Assembly (NCBI GenBank): GCA_945982465.1 | Contig: CAMFSB010000010.1 | Span: 1 to 14,940 of the forward strand | From: an uncultured Faecalibacterium sp. | Lineage (GTDB): Bacteria > Bacillota > Clostridia > Oscillospirales > Ruminococcaceae | Reading direction: 5' to 3' | DNA: 14,940 nucleotides | Shown here: piece by piece, positions 1-14,046 of the stretch | Numbering within the stretch: position 1 is the first letter of the stretch | How the letters are laid out: the number at the start of each line of letters is the position of its first letter | Made by a program: the position numbers and the translations under genes | Notes under the pieces: model-generated | The model's input: the letters and a program-made list of their open reading frames with translations, nothing else | Database searches by the model: none | Told to the model about the DNA's origin: nothing

Positions 1-319
1 CTCCTTGCGCGTCGTGCATCAGGGCCGGGTCGCTTTTGCCGGCGTGCGGCACGCCGCATTTTGCCTCCACCGGGCGGAAATCCCCCTCCGGCGCGGTGCC
101 GGGGTCCTCGGTCAGGCCCTGCAGCCAGGCCGGCGAACAGCCGAACAGCTGCGAAAGCCGCAGCAGCTTTTCGGCGGGGATGGTTTTGACAATGTCGGCC
201 TCATATTTGTAAATGGCCTGCTTGGTGGTGCCCAGCTGGGCGGCCACATAATCCTGCGTATAGCGCTTTTGCAGCCGCATGGTGCGGATGCGCTGGCCCT
301 GGGTCATTTTCTGCGGCAT
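1..319 (-). CDS. XRE/cI-like helix-turn-helix repressor, C-terminus cut by window edge
   Basis: Reading the minus strand from an ATG at 319-317 gives 106 residues with no stop before the window edge, so the C-terminus is missing. Residues 20-40 form a classical XRE helix-turn-helix: YTQDYVAAQLG, then TTKQAIYKYE as recognition helix. They are followed by a helical segment ending LFGCSPAWLQG (58-68), as in phage cI-type and SinR-type regulators. A good ribosome-binding site (AAGGAGG, minus strand, 333-327) lies 7 bases ahead of the ATG. The gene is divergent from the late operon, with two promoters and probable operators between them. The likely role is a DNA-binding repressor of the rightward promoter and of its own gene. 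Residues 69-106 are not recognisable. Whether a peptidase-like (LexA/cI) C-terminal domain follows cannot be seen. The family call is solid; the lysogeny role is inferred from position. Confidence 0.88.
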   Translation of the reverse strand, partial: MPQKMTQGQRIRTMRLQKRYTQDYVAAQLGTTKQAIYKYEADIVKTIPAEKLLRLSQLFGCSPAWLQGLTEDPGTAPEGDFRPVEAKCGVPHAGKSDPALMHDAQG

Positions 320-479: not shown

Positions 480-524
480 AAATGAAACTTTACGAGAACT
501 TGTCACGCATAGGAGGAGGCAGCC

Positions 525-668
525 ATGGAATACGGAGAAGCCCTGCGTCAGGCGCAGCAGCGCCAGCTGGAGCAGGCACTGGCCCAGTCGATGCAAAAGA
601 GGGAGACGGCCGAAAGTGCCCAGCGCGAGCCGGACAGCGGGCTGCGCGCCAAACGGGTGGGCGCATGA
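525..668 (+). CDS. Small hypothetical protein, first gene of the late operon
   Basis: This 47-residue protein begins with ATG at 525 behind a strong purine-rich ribosome-binding site (AGGAGGAGG, 511-519). It is Gln-, Glu- and Arg-rich (for example EALRQAQQRQLEQALAQSM, residues 5-23) and probably one amphipathic helix with a basic tail ending KRVGA. I recognise no family and assign no function. Its TGA overlaps the ATG of the next gene as ATGA (665-668), so the two are probably translationally coupled. A different frame is also open across this stretch (from 482), but its Gly/Ala/Pro-rich product looks like a shadow. The start here is chosen for its ribosome-binding site and the ATGA coupling. 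Confidence 0.65.
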   Translation: MEYGEALRQAQQRQLEQALAQSMQKRETAESAQREPDSGLRAKRVGA

Positions 669-946
669 GCCGGCCCGGCCGGCAGGAGCACGCGGCGGAA
701 CTGGAGGATCTGCGCGCTGCGGCCCGGACGCTGAGCAGCATGCTGGCCGCAGCGGTGGACGACGCGCGGCAGCGCCAGAACAGCGCGCCGGGCGGCGAAC
801 GCGCCGCCGCGAGCCGGGAGCTGAAAGAGCTGACCAGCGTGCTCAAGGATATTGCGGGCGTGGTTAAAACGCTGGAGGAAGATGGCGGAGAAGAAGCTGT
901 AACCGGTGTGGTGGTGCTGCCGGAGGTGATGCACAACGAAAGCTGA
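665..946 (+). CDS. Probable small terminase subunit (TerS-like)
   Basis: This 93-residue protein starts at the ATG of an ATGA overlap with the preceding gene. It is mostly predicted helix: residues 8-36 (EHAAELEDLRAAARTLSSM and onward), then a second helix around SRELKELTSVLKDIAGVVK. It ends with the hydrophobic motif TGVVVLPEV. Small terminases often carry a short hydrophobic strand of this kind near the C-terminus, and the gene lies directly before the large terminase, so DNA recognition for packaging is the likely role. It is shorter than typical TerS proteins and has no clear N-terminal helix-turn-helix; part of that job might fall to the 47-residue protein upstream. Its last codons contain a perfect ribosome-binding sequence for the next gene. 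The call rests on position and general character. Confidence 0.5.
   Translation: MSRPGRQEHAAELEDLRAAARTLSSMLAAAVDDARQRQNSAPGGERAAASRELKELTSVLKDIAGVVKTLEEDGGEEAVTGVVVLPEVMHNES
922..930 (+). promoter_or_regulatory. Perfect Shine-Dalgarno GGAGGTGAT with no canonical start downstream
   Basis: GGAGGTGAT matches the full anti-Shine-Dalgarno of 16S rRNA over nine bases. It lies inside the end of the small terminase gene. At the ideal distance, in the large terminase frame, there is ACG (936-938) instead of ATG. The frame is open from 930 through the terminase. Confidence 0.6.
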
Positions 947-1019: not shown

Positions 1020-2444
1020 GTGATCTGGCAGCCCCAGCCCAAGCAGGCGGTGTCTCTGGCCCGGCCGGAGCAGGAGGTACTGTACGGCGGGGCGGCAGGC
1101 GGCGGCAAAAGCGACGCGCTGCTGGCTGAGGCGCTGCGCCAGGTGCACATCCCCCATTACCGGGCGCTGATTTTGCGCAAGACCTTCCCCCAGCTGACCG
1201 ATCTGGTGGACCGCAGCCAAACGCTGTACGGCGGCAGCTTCCCGGGGGCGGAGTACAACGCCTCGGCCCACTGCTGGACCTTCCCTTCGGGGGCGAAGAT
1301 CTACTTTGGCAGCATGCAGTACAAAAAGGACCGCACCAACTATCAGGGCAAGGCCTACGATTATATTGCCTTTGACGAGCTGACCCATTTTGAATGGGAC
1401 GAATACAGCTACATGCTCAGCCGCAATCGGCCCAGCGGCCCGGGCACGCGGGTGTACATCCGGGCGGCCACCAACCCGGGCGGCGTGGGCCACGGCTGGG
1501 TGCGCCAGCGGTTTATTGCACCGGCCCCGCCGCTGACGCCGGTGGTGGAGCACTACACCGTAAAAGGGCCGGACGGCAGCCCCATCCAGCTGCAGCGCAG
1601 CCGGGTATTCGTGCCCAGCACCGTGTTCGACAACCAAAAGCTGCTGGAAAACGACCCCCAGTACCTGGCAAGTCTGGCAGCTTTGCCCGAAGCGGAACGG
1701 CAGGCACTTTTGTATGGCCGGTGGGACAGCTTTGAAGGCCAGGTGTTCACCGAATGGCGGGATGACCCGGCCCACTACAAGGACCAGCGCTGGACCCATG
1801 TGATCGAGCCGTTTGCCATCCCCTCGTGGTGGAAGATCTGGCGCGGGTATGATTTTGGCTATTCCCAGCCGTTTTCGGTGGGATGGTACGCGGCCGATGA
1901 CGACGGCCGGCTGTACCGCATCCGGGAATATTACGGCTGTACCGACACGCCCAACACGGGCCTGCGCATCGACCCGGCGGAGCAGGCCCGCCGCATCCGC
2001 GAGATCGAGGCCACCGACCCGCTGCTAAAGGGGCGCAGCATCCAGGGTGTGGCCGACCCGGCTATTTTTGACGAGAGCCGGGGCGAGAGCATCGCCGCCA
2101 TGATGGAGCGCAGCCCGTACTTTGTGCACTGGTACCCGGGCGACAACACCCGGCTGGCCGGCAAAATGCAGTTCCACTACCGGTTTGCGTTTGACCCGGA
2201 CGGCCGGCCCATGTTCCAGGTGTTCAACACCTGCCGGCACTTTATCCGCACCATCCCGAACCTGGTGTACGATACCGCCGACGTGGAGGACATCGACACC
2301 CGGCAGGAGGACCACATTTACGACGAATGCCGCTATGTGCTGATGGAAAACCCGCTATCACCCCGGGCGCGGGCCGCCCCGCCGCCCCGCACCGATGACC
2401 CGCTGGAGCTTTCGCCCCGGGCGGTGCGGTTCTTCCGGCTGTGA
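1020..2444 (+). CDS. terL: Phage terminase large subunit (packaging ATPase/nuclease)
   Basis: This motor translocates DNA into the procapsid and cuts it. The ATPase domain has Walker A GGAAGGGKS (23-31), Walker B YIAFDE (115-120) and coupling motif AATNPGG (149-155). The nuclease domain shows acidic residues in GYDFGYS (D278), GVADPAIFD (D346) and QEDHIYDECRY (D431, D435). All key residues are present, so it should be active. The coordinates use GTG at 1020, the only canonical start before the Walker A motif, but it has no ribosome-binding site. The frame is open back to 930 with the strong G/C third-position bias of coding DNA, and a perfect ribosome-binding site (922-930) precedes an in-frame ACG at 936. 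The true protein may therefore start near 936 and carry 28 more residues. It is followed by the portal gene after a 72-base gap. Confidence 0.95.
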   Translation: MIWQPQPKQAVSLARPEQEVLYGGAAGGGKSDALLAEALRQVHIPHYRALILRKTFPQLTDLVDRSQTLYGGSFPGAEYNASAHCWTFPSGAKIYFGSMQYKKDRTNYQGKAYDYIAFDELTHFEWDEYSYMLSRNRPSGPGTRVYIRAATNPGGVGHGWVRQRFIAPAPPLTPVVEHYTVKGPDGSPIQLQRSRVFVPSTVFDNQKLLENDPQYLASLAALPEAERQALLYGRWDSFEGQVFTEWRDDPAHYKDQRWTHVIEPFAIPSWWKIWRGYDFGYSQPFSVGWYAADDDGRLYRIREYYGCTDTPNTGLRIDPAEQARRIREIEATDPLLKGRSIQGVADPAIFDESRGESIAAMMERSPYFVHWYPGDNTRLAGKMQFHYRFAFDPDGRPMFQVFNTCRHFIRTIPNLVYDTADVEDIDTRQEDHIYDECRYVLMENPLSPRARAAPPPRTDDPLELSPRAVRFFRL

Positions 2445-2516: not shown

Positions 2517-4445
2517 ATGAAAAAAGAGCGTGACATTCTGGAACAAATACAGGCAGCTGCCGGGGAACTGGCCCGGCAGCAGGGCGGTCAGCCGGGCGGC
2601 GGGCAGGCGGCCGCCCGCCCTGCCGACGAAGCGGCTGTGCAGCAGGCAGACGATTCTTCCGGCGCCCGGCGGGGTATTACCCTGGCGCAGGCGCTGGCCG
2701 AACCGGAAAAGCCGCCCATCGGCACCGACGAGGTGGCCAGGGCCGCGCTGGTGCTGCAAAAGTACCGGCAGGGCAAAGCCGCGCTGGACCGCCGCATCGT
2801 GGACAACGAGCTGTGGTTCAAAATGGCCCACTGGAAGCAGTATAAAAACCGCCTGATGGACGGCAAAGCCCAGCCGGCGTCCGGCTGGTTGTTCAACTCC
2901 ATCGCCAACAAGCACGCCGACGCGATGGACAACTACCCCGAACCCACCATCCTGCCCCGGGCGGCGGACGACGAGGCCACGGCGCGGCAGCTTTCCAGCG
3001 TGCTGCCCGCTTTGCTGGAGCGCTGCGACTACGAGCAGGTGTACAGCGATACCTGGTGGTACAAGCTCAAGCAGGGCACCGGCGTCAAGGGCGTGTTCTG
3101 GGACAGCACGGCCTACGGCGGCCTGGGCGAGATCGCCATCCGCAAAATGGACCTGCTGATGCTGTTCTGGGAGCCGGGCGTGACGGATATTCAGCAAAGC
3201 CCCCACTTTTTCAGCCTGGCGCTGATGGACAACGACGAGCTGTGCGCCCGCTGGCCCCAGATGAAAGGCCACACCGGCCGCACGGTGGATGTGGCCACCT
3301 ATGTGCACGACGACGCGGTGGACACCAGCGACAAAAGCGTGGTGGTGGACTGGTACTACAAGGTGCTGCGGGGCGGCCGCACGGTGCTGCACTACTGCAA
3401 GTTTTGCAACGATGTGGTGCTGTATGCCAGCGAGAACGACCCGGCCCTGTACGACCGCGGCTACTACGACCACGGCCGGTACCCCTTTGTGTTCGACACG
3501 CTGTTTGTGGAGGAGGACACCCCGGCGGGCTTTGGCTACATCGATGTGATGAAGGACTGCCAGACCGCCATCGACCAGATGAATCATGTGATGCAGGAAA
3601 ATGCCATCCTGGCGGCAAAGCCCCGGTATTTTCTGGCCGACAACAGCGGCGTGAACGAGGATGAGCTGGCGGATTTCTCCCGCGATATCGTCCACTTTAC
3701 CGGCCGCCTGACCGAGGAGAGCTTCCGCCAGCAGTCCACCAAGCCCATGGACGCGGCCTGCCTGACCTATCTGAATAACCGCATCGCCGAGCTGAAAGAG
3801 ACCTCCGGCAACCGGGACTTTTCCCAGGGAGGCACAGCGGCCGGTGTAACGGCGGCATCCGCCATCGCCGCTTTGCAGGAGGCGGGCACCAAGCTTTCGC
3901 GCGATATGCTCAAAAGCGCCTACCGCGCGTTTGTACGGGAATGCTACCTGTGCATTGAACTGATGCGCCAGTTTTACACCGAGCCGCGCATGTTCCGCAT
4001 CACCGGCGAGGGCGGCGGGCTGGCCTTTGCCAGCTTTTCCAACGCAGGGCTGCAGCCCCGCGCCGTGGACGCGGCGTTTGGCCAGCAGGCGGGCCTGCGC
4101 AGCCCGGAGTTCGACATTGCGGTGTCGGCGGCCAAAAAGAGCACGTTCAGCCGCCTTTCGCAGAATGAAAACGCCACCACTCTGTATAAACTGGGCTTCT
4201 TTGACCCGGCCAACGCCCAGCAGGCGCTGACCGCGCTGGAGCTGATGGAGTTCGACGGCATTGAAAAGGTGCGCGCGCGGGTGGAGCAGAACGCCGCCCG
4301 GCGGCAGCTGCTGGAAACGGCGCTGGCCGCCCAGGCCGCCGCCCGCCCGGCCAGCGCGGACGCCGGGGCCGGCGCCATGCCGGCTGCCGCCCGGCCTGTT
4401 TCGCCCGATACCGCCAGCCGCCGGGCCATGGCCGCGGCACTTTAA
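2517..4445 (+). CDS. Phage portal protein, P22-like
   Basis: This 642-residue protein starts with ATG behind AAAGGAG. It follows terL, as portals normally do. The middle is typical of the large portals in short-tailed phages with N4-gp56 capsids: a conserved KQGTGVKGVFWD segment, an acidic YDRGYYDHGRYPFVFD segment near residue 310, then IDVMKDCQTAIDQMNHVMQE. The C-terminal third is helical, with a GGTAAGVTAASAIAALQEAG stretch likely to be in the stem/wing region, and an Ala-rich tail. Portals form the dodecameric ring at one capsid vertex, through which DNA enters and leaves, and dock terminase and neck proteins. The N-terminal 60 residues are Gln/Ala-rich and probably disordered. Length fits P22-type portals (about 700 residues) better than HK97 types (about 400). 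Confidence 0.9.
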   Translation: MKKERDILEQIQAAAGELARQQGGQPGGGQAAARPADEAAVQQADDSSGARRGITLAQALAEPEKPPIGTDEVARAALVLQKYRQGKAALDRRIVDNELWFKMAHWKQYKNRLMDGKAQPASGWLFNSIANKHADAMDNYPEPTILPRAADDEATARQLSSVLPALLERCDYEQVYSDTWWYKLKQGTGVKGVFWDSTAYGGLGEIAIRKMDLLMLFWEPGVTDIQQSPHFFSLALMDNDELCARWPQMKGHTGRTVDVATYVHDDAVDTSDKSVVVDWYYKVLRGGRTVLHYCKFCNDVVLYASENDPALYDRGYYDHGRYPFVFDTLFVEEDTPAGFGYIDVMKDCQTAIDQMNHVMQENAILAAKPRYFLADNSGVNEDELADFSRDIVHFTGRLTEESFRQQSTKPMDAACLTYLNNRIAELKETSGNRDFSQGGTAAGVTAASAIAALQEAGTKLSRDMLKSAYRAFVRECYLCIELMRQFYTEPRMFRITGEGGGLAFASFSNAGLQPRAVDAAFGQQAGLRSPEFDIAVSAAKKSTFSRLSQNENATTLYKLGFFDPANAQQALTALELMEFDGIEKVRARVEQNAARRQLLETALAAQAAARPASADAGAGAMPAAARPVSPDTASRRAMAAAL

Positions 4446-4488: not shown

Positions 4489-4887
4489 ATGACAACGGTA
4501 CAGATCCGAACCACGCCGGTGCAGCTGCCCGACGCCCCCGGCCCCACCAGCGAGCTGCGGGTGATCGTGGCCGGGCACGCCTGCTTTGGCGAAAAAGGCA
4601 AAGACATCGTATGCGCGGCCGAGAGCATCCTGGTGCAGAGCCTGGCCTGCGCGCTGACCCAACTGGATCGCGCCCAGCTGCACGACCTGGCTGTGGACGG
4701 CGTGGCGGGCAGCGGCTGCGTGGCCATCACCGCCGTGCCCACCCCGCAGGGGTTTGAGCGCGTGCGCGGCATGTTTGAAAGCGCCTGCGCGGGCTTTTGC
4801 CTGCTGGCCGAAGCCTACCCGCGCAATGTGCGGGTGCTGCGGGTGCCGGCGGACGAGCAGTCTGCCGCACCAAAGCCCGCCGCCTGA
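4489..4887 (+). CDS. prp: Prp-family cysteine protease, probable capsid-maturation protease
   Basis: This 132-residue protein starts at ATG behind AAAAGGAG. Residues 29-46 read GHACFGEKGKDIVCAAES, the signature of Prp, the ribosomal-processing cysteine protease of Firmicutes. The probable catalytic pair is His30 and Cys42, 12 residues apart as in the bacterial enzyme, with Asp39 between. Host Prp removes the N-terminal extension of ribosomal protein L27, and staphylococcal Prp also trims scaffold and capsid proteins of phage 80alpha. Here the gene lies directly before scaffold and capsid genes, whose products both carry the LQ-F-A/G target motif. The inferred role is processing those two proteins during assembly. 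It is slightly longer than usual (about 110), with a 20-residue Pro-rich N-terminal extension and a Pro/Ala tail. Family call is firm; substrates are inferred. Confidence 0.9.
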   Translation: MTTVQIRTTPVQLPDAPGPTSELRVIVAGHACFGEKGKDIVCAAESILVQSLACALTQLDRAQLHDLAVDGVAGSGCVAITAVPTPQGFERVRGMFESACAGFCLLAEAYPRNVRVLRVPADEQSAAPKPAA

Positions 4888-4905
4888 GCCTGCCGGGCGC
4901 AAAAA

Positions 4906-4934
4906 TTGGCAAAAACTCCCCAAAACTGTAATAT
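4906..4934 (+). promoter_or_regulatory. Possible internal promoter before the scaffold and capsid genes
   Basis: In the AT-rich gap after the protease gene, TTGGCA (4906-4911) and TAATAT (4929-4934) are 17 bases apart. The match is reasonable, but a start near 4941 would fall inside the scaffold ribosome-binding site. It could serve to boost capsid transcripts; it could also be chance. Confidence 0.3.
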
Positions 4935-4951
4935 TTCGGAGGGATTATACA

Positions 4952-5890
4952 GTGAGTGATCAAACGATCCTTATGCTTCCTGCGCTTTGCTGTGCGAAGC
5001 GCTGTAATACCCGCATGCTGGAGCTGCAGCTGTTCGGCGCGGAGGGCGGCGCGGCAGACGCCGCCCCGGCCGCACAGCCCGGCCCTGCGGGAGCTTTTTC
5101 GGGCGATGCAAAACCGGCGCGCACGGCGGCAGGCCGCCCCGATGCCGCCGGCGCCACGGGGCGGGACGCCGCCGCCCCGGTCCTCTCTGCCGCGGAGCAG
5201 CCGTCAGCCGAACAGGACAAACGCGCGGCGTTTGACCGCCTGATCCGCGGCGAGTACAAGGCCGAATTTGCCGAGCGCACCCAGAACATCATCGACCGCC
5301 GGTTCCGGCAGGCCAAGGCGCTGGAGGAAAAATATCAGCAGAGCGAACGCCTCATCCGCACCCTGGCCGTCCGGGAGGGCGTGCCCGCTGACGACCTGGA
5401 CGCGCTGGCCCGGGCTGCGGGCAAGCCCGCGCAGGCCGGCGCGGCGCAGCCCCAAACGGGGCCGCAGCCGCCCGCCCCGGCCCAAACACAGCCCCCGGCC
5501 CGGCAGCTGGCGCAGCAGGCCGCCCGGCGCACCTGCGCACGCTGGCTGTACGAGAGCGAGGGCATGAAGCAGACCTACCCGCAGTTTGACCTGCGGGCAG
5601 AAGTAAAAAACCCGGATTTTGCCGGGATGCTCAAAAGCGGTGTTTCGCTTCGCACCGCGTACCAGGCCTGCCATCTGGACGAGCTGCTGGGCGGCGCGAT
5701 GAAATACGCCGCCGACAAAGCGGCGGAAAACGTGGCCGCCCGCGTGGCGGACCGCGCCCGCCGCCCGGCCGAAAACGGCGCTGTCCCCCGCGCGGCAGCC
5801 GTGATCAAGACCGAGCTGGCCGGCCTGACCCGCGCCGAGCGCGAGCGCATCGAGCGCCGCGCCGCGCGGGGCGAGCAGATTTTGTTCTGA
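4952..5890 (+). CDS. Phage scaffolding protein with N-terminal Prp-type cleavage motif
   Basis: Starting at GTG 4952, eight bases after GGAGGG (4938-4943), the protein has 312 residues. The core (about 86-140) contains FDRLIRGEYKAEFAERTQN and IIDRRFRQAKALEEKYQQSE, typical of scaffolds next to capsid genes in Firmicute phages. It is flanked by Pro/Ala/Gln-rich disordered segments, and the C-terminal part is basic, as scaffold capsid-binding ends often are. Residues 25-29 read LQLFG, matching the Prp target motif, so cleavage would remove about 28 residues. Scaffold directs capsid shell assembly and leaves before packaging. An in-frame ATG at 5015 would start the protein at MLELQLFG, more like related proteins. 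The 21 codons before it use CTT, CCT and TGT unlike the rest and contain a hairpin, but that ATG has no clear ribosome-binding site. Confidence 0.85.
   Translation: MSDQTILMLPALCCAKRCNTRMLELQLFGAEGGAADAAPAAQPGPAGAFSGDAKPARTAAGRPDAAGATGRDAAAPVLSAAEQPSAEQDKRAAFDRLIRGEYKAEFAERTQNIIDRRFRQAKALEEKYQQSERLIRTLAVREGVPADDLDALARAAGKPAQAGAAQPQTGPQPPAPAQTQPPARQLAQQAARRTCARWLYESEGMKQTYPQFDLRAEVKNPDFAGMLKSGVSLRTAYQACHLDELLGGAMKYAADKAAENVAARVADRARRPAENGAVPRAAAVIKTELAGLTRAERERIERRAARGEQILF
4982..5002 (+). promoter_or_regulatory. Compact RNA hairpin between two candidate scaffold starts
   Basis: GCGCTTTGC and GCGAAGCGC pair over nine positions (one G-U) around a UGU loop, ending 12 bases before the ATG at 5015. 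No T-run follows, so it is not a terminator. It may tune start choice or translation of the scaffold message. Confidence 0.45.
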
Positions 5891-5914
5891 CCTATCATAC
5901 AAAGGAGGAAATCC

Positions 5915-6952
5915 ATGCAGAACCTTTGCGAGATCCGCGCACTGGGCTTTGACCTGCAGCTGTTTGCCACCACGCTGGACACCACCGCCTCGGCGGGTAT
6001 GTCGGCCGAAATGAAAACGTTTTACGAAAAACGCCTCATCGACCAGGCCGAGCCCAAGCTGGTGCACGACCAGTTCGCCGATTTTTACCCCATCCCCCAG
6101 GGCAACGGCAAGACCATCGAATTCCGCAAGTACGACAGCCTGCCCAAGGCCACCACGCCGCTGACCGAGGGCGTGACCCCGGACGGCCAGAACCTGAACG
6201 TTACTGCTGTTACCGCCACGCTGGCCCAGTACGGCGGCTGGACGCCCGAAAGCGACCTGCTGTGCATGACCGCCATCGACAACCACATCGTCAATGCCAC
6301 CAAGGTGCTGGCCAGCCAGGCCGGCCGCACGCTGGACACCGTGACCCGCGATGTGCTGGCGGGCGGCACCAACGTGCTGTACGCCCCGGCCGTGGCCGCC
6401 GACGGCACCGAGACCGAGGTGACCAGCCGCAGCGCCCTGACCATGAACAGCAAGCTGACCCCGCAGCTGTTCTTCCGCGCGGCGGCCCAGCTGGGCGCGA
6501 TGAACGCCGATACCATCGGCGACAGCTATGTGGCCATCATCCACCCCTACGCCGCATACGATCTCAAGACCAATAAGGACTTCATCGAGGTGTCGAAATA
6601 CGCCAACCCCGATGCGATCTTCAACGGCGAGATCGGCAAGCTGGGCAACATCCGCTTTGTGGAGACCAGCGAGGCCAAGATCTGGAAGGACGATACCTGC
6701 CCGGCCAACGGCTCGGGCCGGTACGCGGTATTCGGCACCCTGGTGCTGGGCGCCCACGCCTACGGCGTGACCGAGCTGGAGGGCGGCGGCCTGCAGCACA
6801 TCGTCAAGCAGCTGGGCTACGGCGACGACCCGCTGAACCAGCGCGCCTCCATCGGCTGGAAAGCCCTCAAGGCTGCCGAGCGCCTGGTGGAGCAGTACAT
6901 GGTGCGCATCGAGAGCCTGTCGAGCTATTCGGCCACCGCCGCGGCCAACTGA
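5915..6952 (+). CDS. Major capsid protein, N4-gp56 family
   Basis: This 345-residue protein starts at ATG behind a strong AAAGGAGG. It has the features of the N4-gp56 family of HK97-fold coat proteins: an early helical MKTFYEKRLIDQAEPKLVHD, then QGNGKTIEFRKYD, PLTEGVTPDGQ, and a later region GDSYVAIIHPYAAYDLK followed by IGKLGNIRFVETSEAK. Hundreds of copies would form the icosahedral shell. Residues 14-18 read LQLFA, the same motif as in L27 of clostridia, so the Prp-like protease encoded two genes upstream probably removes about 17 residues. It follows the scaffold gene by 24 bases. Codons are strongly biased to C/G endings, suiting high expression. Family and role are secure; the cleavage is inferred from the motif and gene order. 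Confidence 0.95.
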   Translation: MQNLCEIRALGFDLQLFATTLDTTASAGMSAEMKTFYEKRLIDQAEPKLVHDQFADFYPIPQGNGKTIEFRKYDSLPKATTPLTEGVTPDGQNLNVTAVTATLAQYGGWTPESDLLCMTAIDNHIVNATKVLASQAGRTLDTVTRDVLAGGTNVLYAPAVAADGTETEVTSRSALTMNSKLTPQLFFRAAAQLGAMNADTIGDSYVAIIHPYAAYDLKTNKDFIEVSKYANPDAIFNGEIGKLGNIRFVETSEAKIWKDDTCPANGSGRYAVFGTLVLGAHAYGVTELEGGGLQHIVKQLGYGDDPLNQRASIGWKALKAAERLVEQYMVRIESLSSYSATAAAN

Positions 6953-7011: not shown

Positions 7012-7266
7012 ATGACAGAAAACAAAAAGCAGACGGCAAAGGCGGGCGCAGCGGCCCAGCCGATGGTCAAGATCCGCCTGTTCAAGGACAACGGCCGCTA
7101 CAAGGGCGATGTGTTCGTCAGCGTGAACGGCCGCAATTACCAGATCCGCCGCGGCGAGGAGGTGGAGGTGCCGGCCGAGGTGGCCGAGGTGCTGGAGCAT
7201 TCCGCCGCGCAGGACGAGATCACCGCCCGGCGCATCGAGGCGGCCGCGGCCGGCGCCGCTCAGTAA
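7012..7266 (+). CDS. Small conserved protein following the capsid gene
   Basis: This 84-residue protein has a good AAAGGAG site. After a Lys/Ala-rich start, residues 18-60 (MVKIRLFKDNGRYKGDVFVS, then VNGRNYQIRRGEEVEVP) suggest a small beta-rich domain, followed by a helix (AEVAEVLEHSAAQDEITARR) and an Ala-rich tail. Proteins of this kind commonly follow N4-gp56 capsid genes in Firmicute phages, but their role is not established as far as I know. The gene's place between capsid and neck suggests a virion or assembly role, for example a capsid-stabilising or neck-associated protein. The call of family resemblance is good; function is open. Confidence 0.75.
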   Translation: MTENKKQTAKAGAAAQPMVKIRLFKDNGRYKGDVFVSVNGRNYQIRRGEEVEVPAEVAEVLEHSAAQDEITARRIEAAAAGAAQ

Positions 7267-7300
7267 ACGCCGCGCCGCGGCACGAAAGGAGAGGATGCGT

Positions 7301-7684
7301 GTGACCATTCGGGAAGCCATTGGCCGGGCAGATATGCTGCGGCCCAATGCGCTGAGCCAGCAGACCAAGGTGCTGTGGCTGCGGCAGCTGGACGCGGGGC
7401 TGCGCCGCAGCGTGACGGCCCTGCACGAGCCGGACGATGTGGAGTACGATGGCCTGCCCGCGCCCGGCGCAGACCTGGCCACAGACTGCGAGGGCGAGCT
7501 GCTGGCAGGCGAGCCGGACAGCGCCCTGTACATTTACTGGCTGATGGCCCAGGCGGACCTGGCCGAGGGCGAAATCGCCCGCTATGCCAACAGCATGCAG
7601 CTGTACAACGCGGCACTGGCTGATTTTACCGCCCACTACAAGGCCGCGCACCGGCCGCTGCCGCGCGGCCAGTTCCGGCTGTGA
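7301..7684 (+). CDS. Neck / head-tail joining protein (probable)
   Basis: A GTG at 7301, 9 bases after AAAGGAG, is preferred over an ATG at 7295 that is only 3 bases from it. The 127-residue product begins with TIREAIGRADMLRPNALS. It is helical with conserved-looking LWLRQLDAGLRRSV, then a short acidic segment around VEYDGLP, and ends with IARYANSMQLYNAALADFTA, followed by HYKAAHRP. This pattern is seen in small head-completion proteins encoded just after the capsid genes of Firmicute phages. Position between capsid and the gp10-like tail protein suggests it binds the portal ring and starts the short tail, analogous to P22 gp4. That analogy is inference; no catalytic residues (as in gp4 lysozyme-like activity) are evident. 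Confidence 0.65.
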   Translation: MTIREAIGRADMLRPNALSQQTKVLWLRQLDAGLRRSVTALHEPDDVEYDGLPAPGADLATDCEGELLAGEPDSALYIYWLMAQADLAEGEIARYANSMQLYNAALADFTAHYKAAHRPLPRGQFRL

Positions 7685-7697
7685 AAGGAGAGCTGCC

Positions 7698-9440
7698 ATG
7701 AAACTGCCGGCATTGTACACGCTGCCCCGCAGTCAGGTGGTGATCCGCTCCTTTGGCGGCTACAACCACACCACCGCCTGCGAGGAAGGCGAATATTTCA
7801 ACGGCGAAAACCTGTCGGCCCGCAGTTGGCCCGCTTTGTGCCCGCGGCTGCCGCGCCGGCGGCTGGCCCAGCTACAGCAGCCCCACGGCCTGTACGCGAA
7901 AAACGGTCTGATCTGGGTGGACGGCGATACGCTGTACTACAAAGGCATGCCGATGGGTACGGTGCAGGATAATGACAAAACCTTTTGCGGCATCGGCGCC
8001 AAGGTTCTGATCTGGCCGGATAAGCTCTGTTTTGACACCACCGACGGCACCCTGCGCCCGCTGGGCGCCCAATGGACGTCGGCACAGGCGGTGCGCTTTG
8101 CCCCGGCCCGCATCGACAGTACCGAATACACTGTGCGCTTTGCCGGCCCCGACGAGCCGGAAGCGCCCGAAAACGGCGATTACTGGCTGGACACTTCGGG
8201 CGAAGCCGATGTGCTGCGGGTATATGCGGCTGCCAGCGCAAGCTGGGCGGCGGTGTCCACGCCCTATGTGCGCATCGAAGCGGCCGGCATCGGCAAAGGC
8301 TTTGCCAAGTACGACGCCGTAACGCTGAGCGGCATCCGGGCCGATGTGCTGGGCCAGCGGGCCGCCGCGCTGAACACCGACTGCGTGATCTGGGATAAAG
8401 GCGAGGACTTTATCACGGTGACCGGCCTGATCGACAAGGGCGGCGAGCAGACGGCGGAACAGGGCGTCATCACAGTGGAACGCTGCATCCCCGACCTGGA
8501 TTTTCTCACCGAGTGCGACAACCGGGTGTGGGGCGTGGCGCGCGGCGGTCACGAGATCCACGCCTGCAAGCTGGGCGACCCCACCAACTGGTACTGCTAC
8601 ATGGGCACGGCGGCGGATTCGTACACCGTGTCCGTCGGCTCGGACGGCGACTTTACCGGCGCGGCCACCTGCATGGGCTATGTGCTGCTGTTCAAGGAGA
8701 ACACGCTGCACCGGGTGTACGGCTCCAAGCCCGCCAACTACCAGGTGGTCACCGTGCCCTGCCAGGGCGTCAAAGCCGGGTGCGAAAAAAGCCTGGCCAA
8801 CGTGGATTCCACGCTGTGCTACTATTCGCCCGACGGGCCGATGGCCTGCGACGGCGGCCTGCCCGAAGCCATCGGCCGGGCGCTGGGCGCCTCGCCCGGC
8901 AGGCTGGCCGCCGCCGGCGCGGCGCATGGGTGCTACTATCTTTCGATGAAGGGCGGCCGGCGGGAGGAATGGAGCCTGTTCTGCTATGATATGACGCGCG
9001 GCATCTGGCACCGGGAGGACGGCGTGCACGCGCTGTACTTTGCGGCCGACGGCAGCGAACTGCTGTTCCTGAACGCCGAGGGTGAGATCTGGGTGGTGGG
9101 CAGCGAGACCTCTGCTTTGCGGGGCGGCGCGGGCGAAGGGCTGGTGAGCTGGTACGCGGAGACCGGCAAGCTGGGCCTGCGCGAGCCGGGCCACCAGTTT
9201 GTCCCCCGCGTGGAGCTGCGGCTGGAGGCCGCAGCCGGGGCCACGGCCCAGATCTCGGTGCAGTACGACTCCACCGGCCGCTGGGTGCCGGCCGCCGTGC
9301 TGCCGGCCGGGCCGCGGCGCAGCGCCACGGTGCCATTGTCGCCCCGCCGGTGCGAGCAGTTCCGGCTGCGCATCGAGGGCCGCGGCCAGGTAACGCTGCA
9401 CGCGCTGACGCGCACTTATGTAAAGGGGAGTGAGCTGTAA
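7698..9440 (+). CDS. P22 gp10-like tail hub / DNA-stabilisation protein
   Basis: This 580-residue, beta-rich protein starts at ATG behind AAAGGAG. Repeats of short strands throughout suggest a beta-propeller. A conserved central stretch contains CDNRVWG (273-279), LGDPTNWYCYMG (292-303), SVGSDGDFTGAATCMGYVLL and FKENTLHRVYGSKP, then CEKSLANVD and a later WSLFCYDMTRGIWHRED. The NR-W and LGDP-NW pattern resembles the P22 gp10 class of proteins, which cap the portal channel, hold packaged DNA in and anchor the fibres. The C-terminal 130 residues form a separate beta domain. The stop overlaps the next gene's ATG (TAATG). The large size and position make it the main tail component in this window. 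The homology call is from motif memory, so moderately sure. Confidence 0.7.
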   Translation: MKLPALYTLPRSQVVIRSFGGYNHTTACEEGEYFNGENLSARSWPALCPRLPRRRLAQLQQPHGLYAKNGLIWVDGDTLYYKGMPMGTVQDNDKTFCGIGAKVLIWPDKLCFDTTDGTLRPLGAQWTSAQAVRFAPARIDSTEYTVRFAGPDEPEAPENGDYWLDTSGEADVLRVYAAASASWAAVSTPYVRIEAAGIGKGFAKYDAVTLSGIRADVLGQRAAALNTDCVIWDKGEDFITVTGLIDKGGEQTAEQGVITVERCIPDLDFLTECDNRVWGVARGGHEIHACKLGDPTNWYCYMGTAADSYTVSVGSDGDFTGAATCMGYVLLFKENTLHRVYGSKPANYQVVTVPCQGVKAGCEKSLANVDSTLCYYSPDGPMACDGGLPEAIGRALGASPGRLAAAGAAHGCYYLSMKGGRREEWSLFCYDMTRGIWHREDGVHALYFAADGSELLFLNAEGEIWVVGSETSALRGGAGEGLVSWYAETGKLGLREPGHQFVPRVELRLEAAAGATAQISVQYDSTGRWVPAAVLPAGPRRSATVPLSPRRCEQFRLRIEGRGQVTLHALTRTYVKGSEL

Positions 9441-10186
9441 TGGCGGATATCGCATCCATTCGCCTGCCGTCGGATCTTTCGGGCGGCGGCATCAGCAGCG
9501 CCGAGGCCAAAAAGCTCAAAAACTACCTCTACCAGCTCACCGAGCAGCTGCGCTATGTGCTGACCAACCTGGACGACGAAAACATGAGCGCCGCCTACAG
9601 CGCCGGCCTGGCGGGGCAGAGCGTGCAGCTTACCGCCCTGACCGAGGCCCAAAAAACCGATATGGAAGCCCTGCAGGCCAGGCTCGTTTCCACCGCCAAC
9701 GGCATCGCCCACGACTATCAGACGGCCATCGCCGCCGAAAGCGCCGCTCTGCACGCGCTGGTGCGGCAGGAGGACGCCGCCGCGAACGAGAGCGTGCGCG
9801 CCGGGCTGGAAAGCCGGCTGCAAGCGCAGGCCGGGCAGGCCGGCCGCGCGCTGGGCAAAGCCGCCGCCGGGCAGCAGCAGGGCCTTGCCCGGCTGGCCGA
9901 AGCGGTGGACGGTCTGTGCGCCTGCCAAGCAGCCTGGGCCCGCCCGGCCGGCGATGCGCTGGAGCTGGGCGCGGCCGGCGGGCCGTACCGCCTGCGCATC
10001 GCCGGCGACCGGCTGAGCGTGGAGGCCTGGGGCGTGCCGGTGGCCTGCGTCCGGGACGGCCGGCTTTACGCCGCCGCCGCGGAAACGGCGGGCCGCATTG
10101 CCCTGGGCGGCGCCGACGCGGGCGGCTATTACGACCTGGTCCCCACGGCGGCGGGCCTGGGCATTCAATGGAGGGCGGACGCATGA
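9440..10186 (+). CDS. Coiled-coil tail/fibre-associated protein
   Basis: ATG overlaps the previous stop (TAATG). The 248-residue product has an N-terminal segment, SSAEAKKLKNYLYQLTEQLR (about 19-38), then YVLTNLDDEN, common in Firmicute phage tail proteins, where it likely forms a trimeric coiled coil. A long Ala/Gln-rich helix (about 70-165) follows. The C-terminal 80 residues are beta-rich (GGPYRLRIAGDRLSVEAWG and a final YYDLVPTAAGLGIQWR). The order helix-stalk-then-beta-domain fits a fibre stalk or adaptor joining the hub protein to the DUF859-type fibre encoded next. Its stop overlaps that gene as ATGA (10183-10186), so the products are probably made in matched amounts. I do not recognise an enzymatic domain. 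Confidence 0.65.
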   Translation: MADIASIRLPSDLSGGGISSAEAKKLKNYLYQLTEQLRYVLTNLDDENMSAAYSAGLAGQSVQLTALTEAQKTDMEALQARLVSTANGIAHDYQTAIAAESAALHALVRQEDAAANESVRAGLESRLQAQAGQAGRALGKAAAGQQQGLARLAEAVDGLCACQAAWARPAGDALELGAAGGPYRLRIAGDRLSVEAWGVPVACVRDGRLYAAAAETAGRIALGGADAGGYYDLVPTAAGLGIQWRADA

Positions 10187-11649
10187 CATTTGATTTCGGC
10201 ATTGCCTTTGCCGAGCCGTATTTCACCATCGACGGCACCTCGGCGCTGCACCTGAACGTGACCAGCGGCGCGGCGGCGTCGGCCGAGGCCCGGTATCACT
10301 TTGAGGTGACGCTGTGCTCCACCAGCGGCCGCTACAGTCAGAGCTTTGCGGCCGATATGCCCGCCGGCCAGAGCAGCCTGATCCTTGCATACACGGTGCC
10401 GCTGGTATGGGCCGATGACTTTGCGGTGAACCTTGCCGACAGCGCCTGCCCCGACGCCTGTGGCCTGTTCACCGCCGCCATGACAGTGCAGTGCACCAGC
10501 GCTGCCGGCGCGCAGACCGCCCGGTACGAGCTGACCGGCTACCAGGCGCAGCTGCCCGCGACCGTGGCGGCGGACATCCTGCCCAGCGCGGGCGGCCTGA
10601 CCGCCCAGGCCGTGGACGGCCGCGTGCCCGCCGGCTGGGGCGTGTGGGTACAGGGCATCTCGGTGGCGCGGATCACCTGCACAGGGGCGCGCGGGGCGCA
10701 CGGCAGCACCATCCTTGCCTACGAGTTTGGCGGCAAGGCGCAGCAGCAGAACACGGCCGACCTGTGCCTGAGCGAAAGCGGAACGGTCACCATCCCGGTC
10801 ACGGTGGTGGACAGCCGGCTACGCCGGGCGCAGCAGCAGCTGACGCTGGAGGTGCAGCCCTATGCCGCGCCGGCACTCACCCGCCTGGCCAGCCGCCGGT
10901 GCGACGCATCCGGCGCGGCAGACCCGGCGGGGGACTGCCTGGCCGCGTGCTGCACGGCGGCGGGCAGCACGCTGGGCGGCAAAAATCCGCTGACCGTGCA
11001 GTGCGCCTGGAAAAGCGCCGCCGCGGCCCACTACGGCGAGGCGGTGACGCTGGCCGCGCCGGAAACGCCGCAGATCCTGGCAGCTTGGCTGACAGGGGAT
11101 ACCGGCTTTGATGTGAAGTACACCGTTGCCGACGCGTTTTACACGGCGGAATTCTGCGACTATGTGCCCGGCACAGCGTATCTGCTGCATTTCCGCAAGG
11201 GGGGCGGCGGCGTTGCGGTGGGCAAGGCCGCCGAGCACGCCGGATTGTTTGACGTGGCCTACCCCGCCCGGCTGCGCGGCGGCGCCGCGGTGGACGGCGG
11301 CCTGACGGTGGACGGGGCGGACGTGGGCAGCGCGCTGTGCCAGAGCACGGCTGCCTTTGCGCTGGAGCCGGAAAACACCGCCGAAGCGGCGGAAAACCTG
11401 ATCGTAAAATGCGGGCGCGCGCTGCTGTTCCGGCTGCAGTGCACCCTGAACGCCCCTGCGGCGGGCGCGGCGGTGCGGCTGGCGGCGGCGCCGGCCGGCT
11501 ACTACAGCACGGCCTGGCCGCCGGCGGTCACCGCCCTGCAGAACGGGGTGCCCTGCAAAGGCTGGATTGACCGGGACGGATACGCCTGGATCACGCCGAA
11601 CGCCGACGGCCTGCAGAACGCGGAGCTGTACGGCTTTGGCCTGGTATGA
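10183..11649 (+). CDS. DUF859-like tail fibre / receptor-contact protein
   Basis: The start is the ATG of an ATGA overlap, seven bases after GGAGGG. The 488-residue protein has the layout of the DUF859 group of Firmicute phage proteins: a beta-sandwich N-terminus; a central repeat with GVWVQGISVARITCTGARG (from about 153), GSTILAYEF and VTVVDSRLRRA (about 206-215), then a PYAAPALTRL hinge. Next comes a region ending FRKGGGGVAVGKAAEHAGLF (about 337-356). That GK-(G)-VA-GK-AE segment typically precedes the distal tip, here residues 360-488 with a Gly-rich linker (DGGLTVDGADVG) and a WIDRDGYAWITPNADGLQNA beta domain. It is probably the fibre that touches the host surface. Family membership is judged by motif; receptor binding is inferred. 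Confidence 0.75.
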   Translation: MTFDFGIAFAEPYFTIDGTSALHLNVTSGAAASAEARYHFEVTLCSTSGRYSQSFAADMPAGQSSLILAYTVPLVWADDFAVNLADSACPDACGLFTAAMTVQCTSAAGAQTARYELTGYQAQLPATVAADILPSAGGLTAQAVDGRVPAGWGVWVQGISVARITCTGARGAHGSTILAYEFGGKAQQQNTADLCLSESGTVTIPVTVVDSRLRRAQQQLTLEVQPYAAPALTRLASRRCDASGAADPAGDCLAACCTAAGSTLGGKNPLTVQCAWKSAAAAHYGEAVTLAAPETPQILAAWLTGDTGFDVKYTVADAFYTAEFCDYVPGTAYLLHFRKGGGGVAVGKAAEHAGLFDVAYPARLRGGAAVDGGLTVDGADVGSALCQSTAAFALEPENTAEAAENLIVKCGRALLFRLQCTLNAPAAGAAVRLAAAPAGYYSTAWPPAVTALQNGVPCKGWIDRDGYAWITPNADGLQNAELYGFGLV

Positions 11650-11670
11650 CACAAAGGAGAGGAGAAACCG

Positions 11671-12843
11671 ATGGCACTGAAAAAGGACGAGGAAGAGCTG
11701 CAGCTTTACACGGACCCGGCGGCCGAACCCAGCGAAGCGGCCCAGCCCGCCGGGCAGGCCGCGGCGGGCGGTAACAGCGCGCTTTTGAACAGCATCACCT
11801 CCAGCGCCGACGCCGCGGCCGCGCTAGACCAGCTGCGGTATGAAAAATCGGGCGCTGTGCTGGCCGCCGAACAGGCGCTGGCCGACTACACGGCGCAAAA
11901 GCCCGCGGCCTACGAAAGCAGCTACCAGCAAAAGATCGACGCCTTGCTGGACGAGATCCTGGCGCAGGGGGCGTTCCAGTATTCGTTCGACGCGGACCCG
12001 CTGTACCAGCAGTACAAGGATCAGTACGCCCGCAGCGCGCAGCTTGCCTTGCAGAACAGCATGGCCAATGCCGCGGCCGCCACGGGCGGCTACGGCTCCA
12101 GCTACGCGGCGTCGGCGGGCAGCCAGGCGTATCAGGAGCAGATCGCCGCGCTGAACGATGTGCTGCCGGAACTGTACGATGCGGCCCTGACCCGCTGGAA
12201 CACCGAAAGCAGCGCCCGCCGCGGCCGGCTGGAGGATCTGACCGCCCTGGAAAAGAACGCCCAGGCCGCCTACGCGGCCCAGATGGACGACTACTACACC
12301 GGGCTGAAGGCTTACACAGAAGCGGCCGAAAACGCATATAGTAAGGACTACGAGGCTTACACCGACCTGCGCGGCAGCCTTGTCGATCTGCGCGATTACT
12401 ATGCGGCCCAGGAGCAGCAGAGCATCCAGAACGCTCAAAAACAGGCCGAGTACGAGCTGGCGCTGAAAAAGTACGAGGAGAGCGTGCGCCAGTGGGAGGC
12501 CGAGCAGGCCGCGGCACAGGCAAAGCTGGCCTGGGAGCAGGCGCAGTACCAGCAGCAACAGGCCGCAAAGCAGGCGCAGGCGACCCAAAGCAGCACGGCA
12601 TCGTCGTCCGGCAGCAGCTCTCAGCCGGCCACCAGCAGCACGCTGAGCGCGGCGGCGGTGCAGGTGCAGCAGGCCCTTACACAGCGCGCCGCCGCGCTGG
12701 CCAGCCGTGTGGGGACGAAGGCCCTTACGGCCGCGCAGCGCACCGCGCAGATCGCGGCGATGCTGCGCAGCTACTATCAGGCCGGCACGATCACAAAAGC
12801 CGAGGCAAACAAGATCGGTGCACAGTGGGGCGTGTCGGTATAA
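11671..12843 (+). CDS. Helical Ala/Gln-rich virion protein, candidate ejection protein
   Basis: This 390-residue protein follows AAAGGAGAGGAG. Residues 102-165 hold a segment I recognise from many clostridial phages: FQYSFDADPLYQQYKDQY, then TGGYGSSYAASAGSQAYQEQ and LNDVLPELYDAALTRW. Around it are long coiled-coil helices rich in Ala, Gln, Tyr and Glu (about 175-305), a Ser-rich linker (about 308-325) and a small helical C-terminal domain (AAMLRSYYQAGTITKAEANK). The function is not established. As there is no tape-measure gene and the virion looks short-tailed, a role as internal protein ejected with DNA, as in P22 or T7, is plausible. Residues 9-13 read ELQLY, near the Prp motif of scaffold and capsid. 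A fibre or baseplate accessory role is the alternative. Confidence 0.65.
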   Translation: MALKKDEEELQLYTDPAAEPSEAAQPAGQAAAGGNSALLNSITSSADAAAALDQLRYEKSGAVLAAEQALADYTAQKPAAYESSYQQKIDALLDEILAQGAFQYSFDADPLYQQYKDQYARSAQLALQNSMANAAAATGGYGSSYAASAGSQAYQEQIAALNDVLPELYDAALTRWNTESSARRGRLEDLTALEKNAQAAYAAQMDDYYTGLKAYTEAAENAYSKDYEAYTDLRGSLVDLRDYYAAQEQQSIQNAQKQAEYELALKKYEESVRQWEAEQAAAQAKLAWEQAQYQQQQAAKQAQATQSSTASSSGSSSQPATSSTLSAAAVQVQQALTQRAAALASRVGTKALTAAQRTAQIAAMLRSYYQAGTITKAEANKIGAQWGVSV

Positions 12844-12859: not shown

Positions 12860-13708
12860 ATGCAGGGGATCGATGTTTCGCGCTTCCAGGGCGCAATCAA
12901 CTGGCAGCGGGTGAAAAACGCGGGCAAGGAATTTGCCATTGCGCGGGCCGGGTACGGCCGGCTCATCAGCCAGAAAGATCCGTATTTTGACCGCAACTAC
13001 AACGGCGCCAATGAGGTGGGGCTGCCGGTGGGCTGCTACTGGTACAGCTATGCCACCGATGTGGCCGGCGCCGAGGCGGAGGCCGACGCCTGCCTGGAGG
13101 TGATCGCGGGGCTGGAATTTCCGCTGGGCGTGTGGTTTGACCAGGAGTACGAGCCGGCCATTGTGGCGCTGACCAACACCCGGCGCACGGCCATTATCCA
13201 GACATTTCTGGAGCGCATCAAGCAGGCGGGCTTTATCGCGGGGCTGTACTGCTCGGCCGACTGGCTGCGTACAATGGTGAACTACAGGGACCTGACGGAC
13301 GAAAACCTGTGGATCGCCCAGTACGGCGCAACGCTCAACGCGCCGCTGCCGGTCAATCTCTGGCAGTACTCCGACACCGGCCGCGTCAGCGGCATCCAGG
13401 GGAATGTGGATCTTGACCAGCTGTTCACCCCGCCCACCGGCGGCAGCACCCAGGGCGGCATGCTGCCGCTGGGCACCGAGACGCTGCGCCGGGGCGACAC
13501 CGGCGTGTATGTGCGGAATCTGCAGATCATTCTCACCGAGCTGGGCTATGCGCCCAGCGCCATCGACGGCATTTTCGGCGCGTTTACCGAAAGCGCCGTC
13601 ATGGCGTTCCAGCGCGCGGCCGGCCTTACGCCCGACGGCGTGGTAGGCCCGCAGACCCGCGCCGCACTGGAACAGGCCTGGAACCAGATCACCTGCCAGC
13701 AAAAATAA
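12860..13708 (+). CDS. Endolysin: GH25 lysozyme with peptidoglycan-binding domain
   Basis: This 282-residue enzyme starts at ATG behind GAGGAGG; the frame is open further upstream but that part overlaps the previous gene. Residues 1-190 form a GH25 muramidase that cuts the glycan chain of peptidoglycan. Asp5 (GIDVSRFQG), Asp94 and Glu96 (VWFDQEYE) are the expected active-site acids, with YWYSYA and a late NLWQYSDTGRVSGIQGNVD also conserved. After a Gly/Thr-rich linker, residues 208-276 form a PG_binding_1 domain (LRRGDTGVYVRNLQIIL, IDGIFGAFTESAV, GLTPDGVVGPQTRAAL). There is no signal peptide, so export depends on the holin encoded two genes downstream. Complete and probably active; releases progeny by lysing the host. 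Confidence 0.95.
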   Translation: MQGIDVSRFQGAINWQRVKNAGKEFAIARAGYGRLISQKDPYFDRNYNGANEVGLPVGCYWYSYATDVAGAEAEADACLEVIAGLEFPLGVWFDQEYEPAIVALTNTRRTAIIQTFLERIKQAGFIAGLYCSADWLRTMVNYRDLTDENLWIAQYGATLNAPLPVNLWQYSDTGRVSGIQGNVDLDQLFTPPTGGSTQGGMLPLGTETLRRGDTGVYVRNLQIILTELGYAPSAIDGIFGAFTESAVMAFQRAAGLTPDGVVGPQTRAALEQAWNQITCQQK

Positions 13709-13718
13709 GGAGGATGGC

Positions 13719-14018
13719 ATGGATGCGACCATTGCTGCGCTTTTGATCAGCCTGGCCGCGTGTCTGGCAAACGTTCTGGGCGTTGCGCTCAGCCGTGACC
13801 GCCGCACCGAGGAGGATGCGATCTGGCGCGGGGAAGTAAACGGAAAGCTGGACGTTGTATGCGGTATCAAGACCGACGTGGAGCATTTGAAAGAGGAGTG
13901 CCGCCAGAACGCCAAAAACGTGGCGGTGGCGGACGCCGGCGTAAAAAGCGCCCATCACAGGATCGACGAACTGGCCCGGCAGCTGCAGGCAGACGCCGGC
14001 CGCCTGCAGCGTGGATGA
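13719..14018 (+). CDS. Membrane-anchored coiled-coil protein of the lysis cassette
   Basis: This 99-residue protein has a strong TAAGGAGG site that overlaps the endolysin stop codon. Residues 4-24 (TIAALLISLAACLANVLGVAL) form one membrane segment, followed by a basic-acidic stretch and a helical coiled-coil C-terminus (IKTDVEHLKEECRQNAK, then KSAHHRIDELARQLQ). The KSAHHRID element resembles small membrane proteins found beside holins in Firmicute phages, similar in layout (though reversed in order) to XhlA-type proteins. It probably helps the holin or regulates lysis timing. No enzymatic motif is seen. The family is not firmly recognised; the location between endolysin and holin supports a lysis role. 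Confidence 0.6.
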   Translation: MDATIAALLISLAACLANVLGVALSRDRRTEEDAIWRGEVNGKLDVVCGIKTDVEHLKEECRQNAKNVAVADAGVKSAHHRIDELARQLQADAGRLQRG

Positions 14019-14046
14019 CACAAAACCGCAAAAGGGGGAAAACGGG

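Follow-up and report, generated by a model that had tools for sequence, protein, structure and literature searches.

In Staphylococcus aureus, the host cysteine protease Prp acts on ribosomal protein L27 as well as on the capsid and scaffold proteins of phage 80α (PMC9405229, PMC5744158). Prp substrates feature Leu at P4, Gln at P3, Phe at P1 and a small residue at P1′. In the S. aureus enzyme (SaPrp), for which the active-site residues G21, H22, A23, G29, D31, C34 and S38 are described, the Asp three residues before the Cys holds the P3 Gln together with Gly29 (PMC9405229). A phage-encoded maturation protease of this family is already known from Cp-1, whose enzyme is placed among the Prps in MEROPS (C108, clan CR) after a 1998 paper (PMC12445089). 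The genus Faecalibacterium, in turn, harbors a gene-transfer-agent-like element (FpGTA; Borodovich et al. 2026, PMC12946183). FpGTA I is a 10.5-kb operon found in twelve of the twelve Faecalibacterium genomes examined by its authors, FpGTA particles measure about 40 nm and contain about 9 kb of DNA, the lysis genes reside in a second operon, and Faecalibacterium particles pack random host DNA, as published for species other than the one studied here (PMC12946183). Its authors left room for unidentified maturation genes, and neither 'Prp' nor 'protease' appears in the main text of that paper as available (PMC12946183). Here we describe a stretch of 14,940 nucleotides from an uncultured Faecalibacterium sp. 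(contig CAMFSB010000010.1; hereafter the window), which probably carries an FpGTA-like packaging cluster inherited with its Faecalibacterium host and not an infectious phage. It is highly probable that the Prp gene of this cluster encodes the capsid maturation protease of the element, predicted to cut the LQLF-G/A sites of the scaffold and capsid proteins and, in many relatives, fused to the scaffold and probably self-freeing.

The initial annotation of the window, made from the sequence alone, had recognized a Prp-signature protein (His30, Cys42) encoded before the scaffold and capsid genes. Indeed, the open reading frame (ORF) between the portal and scaffold/capsid genes encodes His30 within GHACFGEKGKDIVCAAES, as well as Cys42, and matches both PF04327 (Peptidase_Prp, 46.7 bits with a cut-off of 27) and PHROG 4478 ('peptidase'). 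The residues G29, H30, A31, G37, D39, C42 and S46 are invariant across 19 aligned homologs and correspond to the active-site set of SaPrp; the Gly-to-Asp loop, 11 residues long, has the same length in SaPrp. The AlphaFold2 (AF2) model has the Prp topology (pLDDT 89.5, with a poorly fixed loop 31–40 at pLDDT 65), and a Foldseek search against PDB put SaPrp (7kld) on top with an E-value of 1.7e-6, the best 13 rows all being Prp-family structures. The protein is thus a member of Peptidase_Prp (PF04327, MEROPS C108), and its proteolytic activity is predicted from sequence. Since it falls far below the NCBIfam cut-offs for ribosomal-processing Prp equivalogs (best score 31.9 bits against a cut-off of 166), it should not be filed as a ribosomal-processing Prp. 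The Prp domain evolves under purifying selection (median dN/dS 0.27, compared with 0.12 for the large terminase TerL, 0.21 for the portal, 0.17 for the capsid protein and 0.72 for the linker).

The next two genes downstream of Prp encode the putative substrates. The capsid protein matches its family profile (TIGR04387, 309.9 bits with a cut-off of 60), whereas the scaffold owes its name to gene order, as it has no Pfam family and matches only PHROG 13908, of unknown function; its GTG start at 4952 is backed by relatives with a similar N-terminus (L013, L151 and L152). The motifs LQLFG (residues 25–29) and LQLFA (residues 14–18), noted already in the initial annotation, are where it had placed them, and both combine P4 Leu, P3 Gln and P1 Phe with a small P1′ residue. 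Inside proteins, LQxF[AGS] occurs at a background of 9.7e-5 per residue, so that about 0.4% of 45-residue N-termini should have the motif by chance and two given neighboring proteins both would with a probability of about 1.6e-5 (0.4% squared). Among ATG ORFs led by a Shine-Dalgarno (SD) sequence in the collected loci, the observed figure is 47 of 1283, a set rich in capsid loci that indicates concentration of the motif and not a genome-wide rate. Cleavage of the scaffold and capsid proteins by Prp is a prediction well supported by comparison: the enzyme would recognize the L27-like LQLF-G/A near both N-termini and remove about 28 residues from the scaffold and 17 from the capsid protein, by analogy with the host Prp acting on the 80α proteins.

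In related loci, the scaffold site tends to drift where the capsid site does. Among 73 loci with both sites read, Gln occupies P3 in both sites at 65, in neither at 5 and in one of the two at 3 (Fisher p 8e-6). Joint drift (capsid/scaffold) is seen as LRLFD/LRLFD (L273), LRMFD/LQLFD (L259), LHLFA/LHLFE (L298), LNLFA/LHLFE (L300), LNLFD/LHLFE (L316) and IDLFE/LTLFE (L268), while the capsid site has changed alone, at P1′, in LQFFV/LQYFG (L265) and LQLFV/LQLFA (L301). On the enzyme side, the Asp at Cys−3, which in SaPrp holds the P3 Gln, is kept in 56 of 56 loci whose capsid site has Gln at P3 and in 2 of the 8 whose capsid site lacks it. These figures come from 64 rows thinned by hand (near-copies and L270 out, L334 in); for L253, L275, L300 and L316 the active-site strings were manually trimmed or re-cut. 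A host Prp is bound to LQxFA through L27; therefore, drift of the sites fits an enzyme owned by the phage. The six loci with joint drift (L259, L273, L298, L300, L316 and L268) also have altered Prp active-site loops and represent natural specificity variants; such enzyme/site pairs offer a natural test of Prp specificity.

In the genome of the window (G000, a 90% complete draft) we found no second PF04327 match, and the L27 gene directly follows that of L21, with no Prp in between and no LQxF extension. Across the genus, PF04327 is matched in 30 of 31 genomes, L27 in 27 of 31 and both in 26, and in none of these 26 does Prp adjoin L27. L27 begins with MAHKKG in all 12 other genus genomes read, the starts having been taken from the + strand of loci only. 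In G000 itself the L27 frame (L002:1499-1515) departs from the intact MAHKKG of the other 12: after MAH come two TAA codons and a number of unusual residues, probably through a draft-assembly fault. Seven carriers outside the genus (G002–G008) came from the homolog search. In six of them Prp is present once, and L27 was found in five of the six (open frame of 87 aa; the one read, L051, starts with MAHKKG); the remaining carrier, G007, has one Prp adjoining a long L27 plus a second Prp. Given a short L27 and no other Prp found, no substrates other than the capsid proteins are apparent, and the 80α-style use of a host Prp seems unavailable. One could still suppose that the motifs are relics read by a host Prp as in 80α (PMC5744158), with the Prp of the element redundant or serving L27; isolated Lactococcus and Enterococcus phages do carry Prp where a cellular Prp is known (Lactococcus lactis being the control). 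We consider this very improbable, as the genome has no other PF04327 match and a short L27, and drifted pairs such as LRLFD/LRLFD and LHLFA/LHLFE fit no LQxFA enzyme. Beyond the genus, 65 of 245 genomes of the order have no PF04327 match, which may reflect loss of the cellular Prp from several families. In Spirochaete metagenome-assembled genomes (L021–L038, among the matches listed), Prp adjoins an L27 that starts with MGR(T/S)KGG and lacks an LQxF extension, in agreement with the literature.

Two points had escaped the initial annotation, the short L27 of the host and the finding that in many relatives Prp and scaffold form a single chain. Among the 30 genus genomes with a Prp, 20 encode a Prp-scaffold fusion whose joint reads M-x-(D/E)-LQ(L/M)F(A/G); four genomes (G258, G263, G272 and G274), with open frames of 316–388 aa, were not read for the joint. 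Prp is separate in five (G000, G199, G270, G271 and G275). G278 (L144) also has a Prp-scaffold fusion, but there the reading frame breaks soon after the motif at the joint. An alignment of 13 fusions shows no change in the active-site residues or in the M, L, Q and F of the joint. The model of a fusion, of which only the Prp part was used, shows a folded Prp, a low-confidence joint and linker, and helices behind (mean pLDDT 68). A protease fused to the scaffold with a site at the joint would enter the procapsid together with the scaffold and probably free itself. While the genes, motifs, active-site residues, predicted fold, flanks and covariation come directly from sequence or computation, we infer this freeing step, as we do cleavage, its timing and gene-transfer activity. 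There is no general support for an internal start that would yield free scaffold: a start codon preceded by a loosely defined SD-like sequence was seen at 9 of 17 joints (8 of 16 if the broken L144 is set aside). The fused genomes group in a single clade of the host tree (96/93) that excludes G199, G271 and G000, the rooting being unsure owing to very long outgroup branches and two outgroups that are mostly gaps, and the branch above G000 being weak (83/42). The capsid tree requires 4 changes of the fused label, the broken G278 accounting for one, and is compatible both with a single fusion that was later split and with multiple fusions.

The near-ubiquity of the cluster in the genus bears on the nature of the element. 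The window probably represents an FpGTA-like packaging cluster, because its architecture, host-gene neighbors and near-universal presence in the genus fit such an element: it has genes for a possible small terminase (TerS), TerL, portal, scaffold and capsid protein, and no integrase or replication genes were found by profile searches among the window proteins scanned, on a contig whose left end lies about 0.5 kb before the cluster begins. The match to FpGTA is one of architecture and genus. A trigger-factor-like neighbor is common to the window, G199 and G271. A 187-aa host gene downstream of L142 recurs in ten regions (L139, L141, L143–L146, L148, L149, L156 and L157); L140 shares with L142 only a 467-aa host gene, and L154, L155 and L158 have no match to any L142 host gene. 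Host and cluster distances agree (Mantel r 0.90–0.95 over 23 genomes, with no permutation of 999 as high), also over the 20 fused or formerly fused genomes left after excluding three with a separate Prp (r 0.81–0.93, 0/999). The case for vertical inheritance at a fixed host locus is strong for the fused group; the window has the shared right neighbor, yet the kinship of its capsid protein departs from that of its host. This departure would suit a piece of an ordinary prophage using the same protease mechanism, as would the lysin and holin genes, the contig end so close to the cluster, the prophage-like loci with a related capsid protein in the genus (L147, L150) and the fused versions found in viral contigs of 27–39 kb (L250, L251, L254 and L256). 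We nevertheless regard a prophage origin as doubtful in view of the scanned proteins lacking integrase and replication genes, the trigger-factor-like neighbor, the Prp in 30 of 31 genomes and the agreement of distances. The loci L147 (G264) and L150 (G237) are second, prophage-like copies with their own Prp-scaffold fusions and extra phage-type genes upstream, present beside the conserved cluster copy. Thus, as regards the proposal of the initial annotation that a phage brings its own Prp as a prohead protease, the Prp identity, intact active site, both motifs and capsid role stand, and it is the infectious phage that gives way to a probable FpGTA-like element.

Is the pairing of Prp and motif specific to Faecalibacterium? 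A first scan of viral contigs with the single Prp as query found no relatives. Among 57 viral loci with a close capsid relative, Prp and a strict capsid motif are both present in 40, Prp only in 11, the motif only in 5 and neither in 1 (57 of 83 loci were counted, the rest having ≤3 kb upstream of the capsid gene, and related loci were not thinned). Several Prp-only loci have near-motifs such as LQWFT, LQFFV and LHLFA. Nine phages with a capsid protein of the same family (from Bacillus, Paenibacillus, Stenotrophomonas, two Streptomyces, Pseudomonas, Escherichia, Achromobacter and Tunturiibacter), hand-picked for host spread from 241 matching records, have neither Prp nor motif; L334, retrieved as a tenth, does have a Prp, together with the drifted site LNLFD. 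With the nine controls, and leaving out loci without Prp and with <3 kb upstream, 112 rows divide into 81 with both, 16 with Prp only, 5 with the motif only and 10 with neither (Fisher p 1.3e-4, uncorrected for descent). In six of six isolated phages of lactic-acid bacteria, Prp follows the portal and the motif is present in both scaffold and capsid protein. The lack of correlation across related phages that, for the initial annotation, would have refuted its interpretation is not what we see: within the N4-gp56 capsid family, Prp and motif go together, although a test on a tree (below) was uninformative. GenBank calls the Prps H20, H22 and H24 (of Lactococcus PLgT-1, Enterococcus phiFL3A and phiFL3B) 'ribosomal protein', probably a carry-over from the L27 neighborhood.

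Several observations nevertheless speak against Prp as the maturation protease of an inherited cluster. Five viral loci have the capsid motif with no Prp found upstream, and a tree-based test of the independence of Prp and motif, with 5 pairs, was uninformative. Because related phages were included, the number of independent events behind the covariation may be as low as two or three. The genome of the window is an incomplete draft. By host genes the window is closer to G269 (0.85) than to G199 (0.81) and G271 (0.77), while by capsid protein it is closer to G199 and G271 (0.84, 0.84) than to G269 (0.78). At 21 of 30 non-L27 Prp loci of the order (L187–L220, among the matches listed, as are all loci named in this paragraph except the L27-adjacent copies), no SD-led LQxF[AGS] occurs within 6 kb downstream, and universality of the Prp-motif pairing is rejected; several of these 21 also lack the GH...D..C signature. 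Finally, cleavage here is a prediction from comparison, and 80α needs the scaffold peptide while its cleavage is dispensable (PMC5744158). The last point, together with the chaperone role proposed for SaPrp and L27 (PMC9405229), would suit a Prp acting mainly as an assembly chaperone or docking partner of the N-terminal peptides, with proteolysis secondary. This appears unlikely to us, since neither the 19 homologs nor the 13 fusions show any change of the predicted catalytic Cys or His, and in both sites of the window the Phe is followed by a small residue. At the other 9 of the 30 loci (L202, L206, L207, L209, L210, L211, L215, L219 and L197) the motif does lie within 6 kb downstream. We also rejected compensation, whereby a phage would carry Prp only where its host has lost it: order genomes with a cellular L27-adjacent Prp (L061, L159, L163, L166, L168, L169 and L171) also hold a non-L27 Prp with a motif-bearing scaffold and/or capsid protein (L202, L206, L207, L209, L210, L211, L215 and L219), and Lactococcus and Enterococcus phages carry Prp. 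The loci L187–L190, L192–L195 and L220 have a divergent PF04327 away from L27, without the usual GH...D..C and with no motif-bearing neighbors found, and L196 gave no Prp match in the order-region reading.

The features of the window are collected in Table 1. The cluster is a single run on the + strand: a possible TerS, TerL, a P22-like portal, Prp, the scaffold-position protein, the N4-gp56 capsid protein, virion genes, a GH25 lysin and a holin. The possible TerS has no Pfam match and an uncertain start, its ORF opening at 461. Among the virion genes, the 580-aa product matches PHROG 511 (internal virion protein) and the frame 10165-11646 matches PF05895. No tRNA or Rfam match was found in the window.

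Table 1. Predicted features of the window, with coordinates counted from its first nucleotide.
Feature	Position	Strand	Basis
Helix-turn-helix regulator, left neighbor, running off the contig; host or element gene	2..319	-	PF01381
Possible small terminase	482..946	+	Position; 37-46% identity over part of length to pre-TerL ORFs of relatives
Large terminase	1020..2444	+	PF03237, PHROG 979
P22-like portal protein	2517..4445	+	PF16510, PHROG 156
Prp cysteine protease, 132 aa	4489..4887	+	PF04327; active-site residues; AF2 fold like 7kld
Predicted catalytic codons of Prp	His30 = 4576-4578, Cys42 = 4612-4614	+	
Scaffold-position protein, 312 aa, GTG start	4952..5890	+	Gene order; PHROG 13908; SD GGAGG ahead of GTG
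LQLFG of scaffold protein, residues 25-29, predicted cut F28/G29	5024..5038	+	Homologous position in L151, L152, L013
N4-gp56 family major capsid protein, 345 aa, ATG 5915	5915..6952	+	TIGR04387
LQLFA of capsid protein, residues 14-18, predicted cut F17/A18	5954..5968	+	Q15, F17, A18 invariant in 7 aligned capsid proteins
Further cluster genes (84, 129, 580, 248, about 490, 390 aa)	7012..12843	+	Homologs in clusters of relatives
Lysis genes: GH25 lysin 12860-13708, 99-aa protein, holin 14047-14328	12860..14328	+	PF01183 (lysin), PF04531 (holin)
Trigger-factor-like gene (FKBP part), flanking, cut by contig end	14479..14925	+	PF00254; TIGR00115 below its cut-off; synteny

Compared with FpGTA I/II, the window has the same order of TerS, TerL, portal, scaffold and capsid genes, the same near-ubiquity in the genus, a podovirus-like character and no integrase seen (PMC12946183). 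It differs in that its lysis genes adjoin the capsid cluster, whereas the second operon of FpGTA lies about 125 kb away in strain APC918/95b (PMC12946183), and in that its Prp is a separate gene. The gene transfer agent of this abundant human gut genus now has a likely maturation protease, and exact new N-termini are predicted, which existing particle proteomics could confirm or refute.

Among Prps, the S. aureus enzyme is similar in fold, active-site set, LQxF-A type sites and the targeting of both capsid and scaffold (PMC9405229, PMC5744158). It is host-encoded and serves the ribosome, whereas the window Prp belongs to a capsid cluster in a genome where no extended L27 was found. The Cp-1 enzyme is a phage-encoded member of the Prp family that shortens the major capsid protein at its N-terminus (PMC12445089), as is predicted for the window Prp. 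However, it cuts after residue 48 (...RINH|AT..., position counted here) with no LQxF site, matches the profile weakly (E 0.0055) and is encoded away from the capsid gene. Oenococcus S13, Krappator27, Enterococcus phiFL3A, Lactococcus PLgT-1, TP712 and Lactobacillus Lj965 resemble the window in having Prp after the portal and an N-terminal LQxF(A/S) in both proteins; they differ in being isolated phages or a prophage with another capsid type as annotated and a separate Prp. The tree of Prps was built from 83 rows and 116 columns, and 40 of its 80 inner branches are open; separating phage from L27-linked rows needs 3 label changes, compared with about 26 in shuffles. As the phage Prps stand largely apart on this weakly resolved tree, recruitment from ribosome to capsid need not be the direction. 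The idea in the initial annotation of a ribosome enzyme turned capsid enzyme as a distinct assembly system is corrected by the experimental precedent of Cp-1, by the same arrangement in isolated phages and by a tree that does not require such recruitment. The comparison bears on the origin of Prp, be it a phage enzyme first or a ribosomal enzyme first. In a full-text literature search, whose coverage excludes most subscription papers and which thus does not prove novelty, we recognized neither a description of a phage-encoded Prp directed at LQxF sites in the scaffold and capsid protein of the same phage nor one of a Prp-scaffold fusion.

Protease and scaffold in one chain are familiar from lambda (C/Nu3) and the herpesviruses, where the proteases are serine enzymes unrelated to Prp. 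The Prp-scaffold fusions share this single-chain design and differ in the protease and in lacking general support for an internal scaffold start. On balance, we think it somewhat more likely than not that the Faecalibacterium gene transfer agent has Prp as its maturation protease, in most species read forming one chain with the scaffold and freeing itself at the LQLF-A joint, with the L27 of the genus made short and the capsid enzyme the only Prp left. The single-chain arrangement of lambda and the herpesviruses would then have a counterpart built on a cysteine protease.

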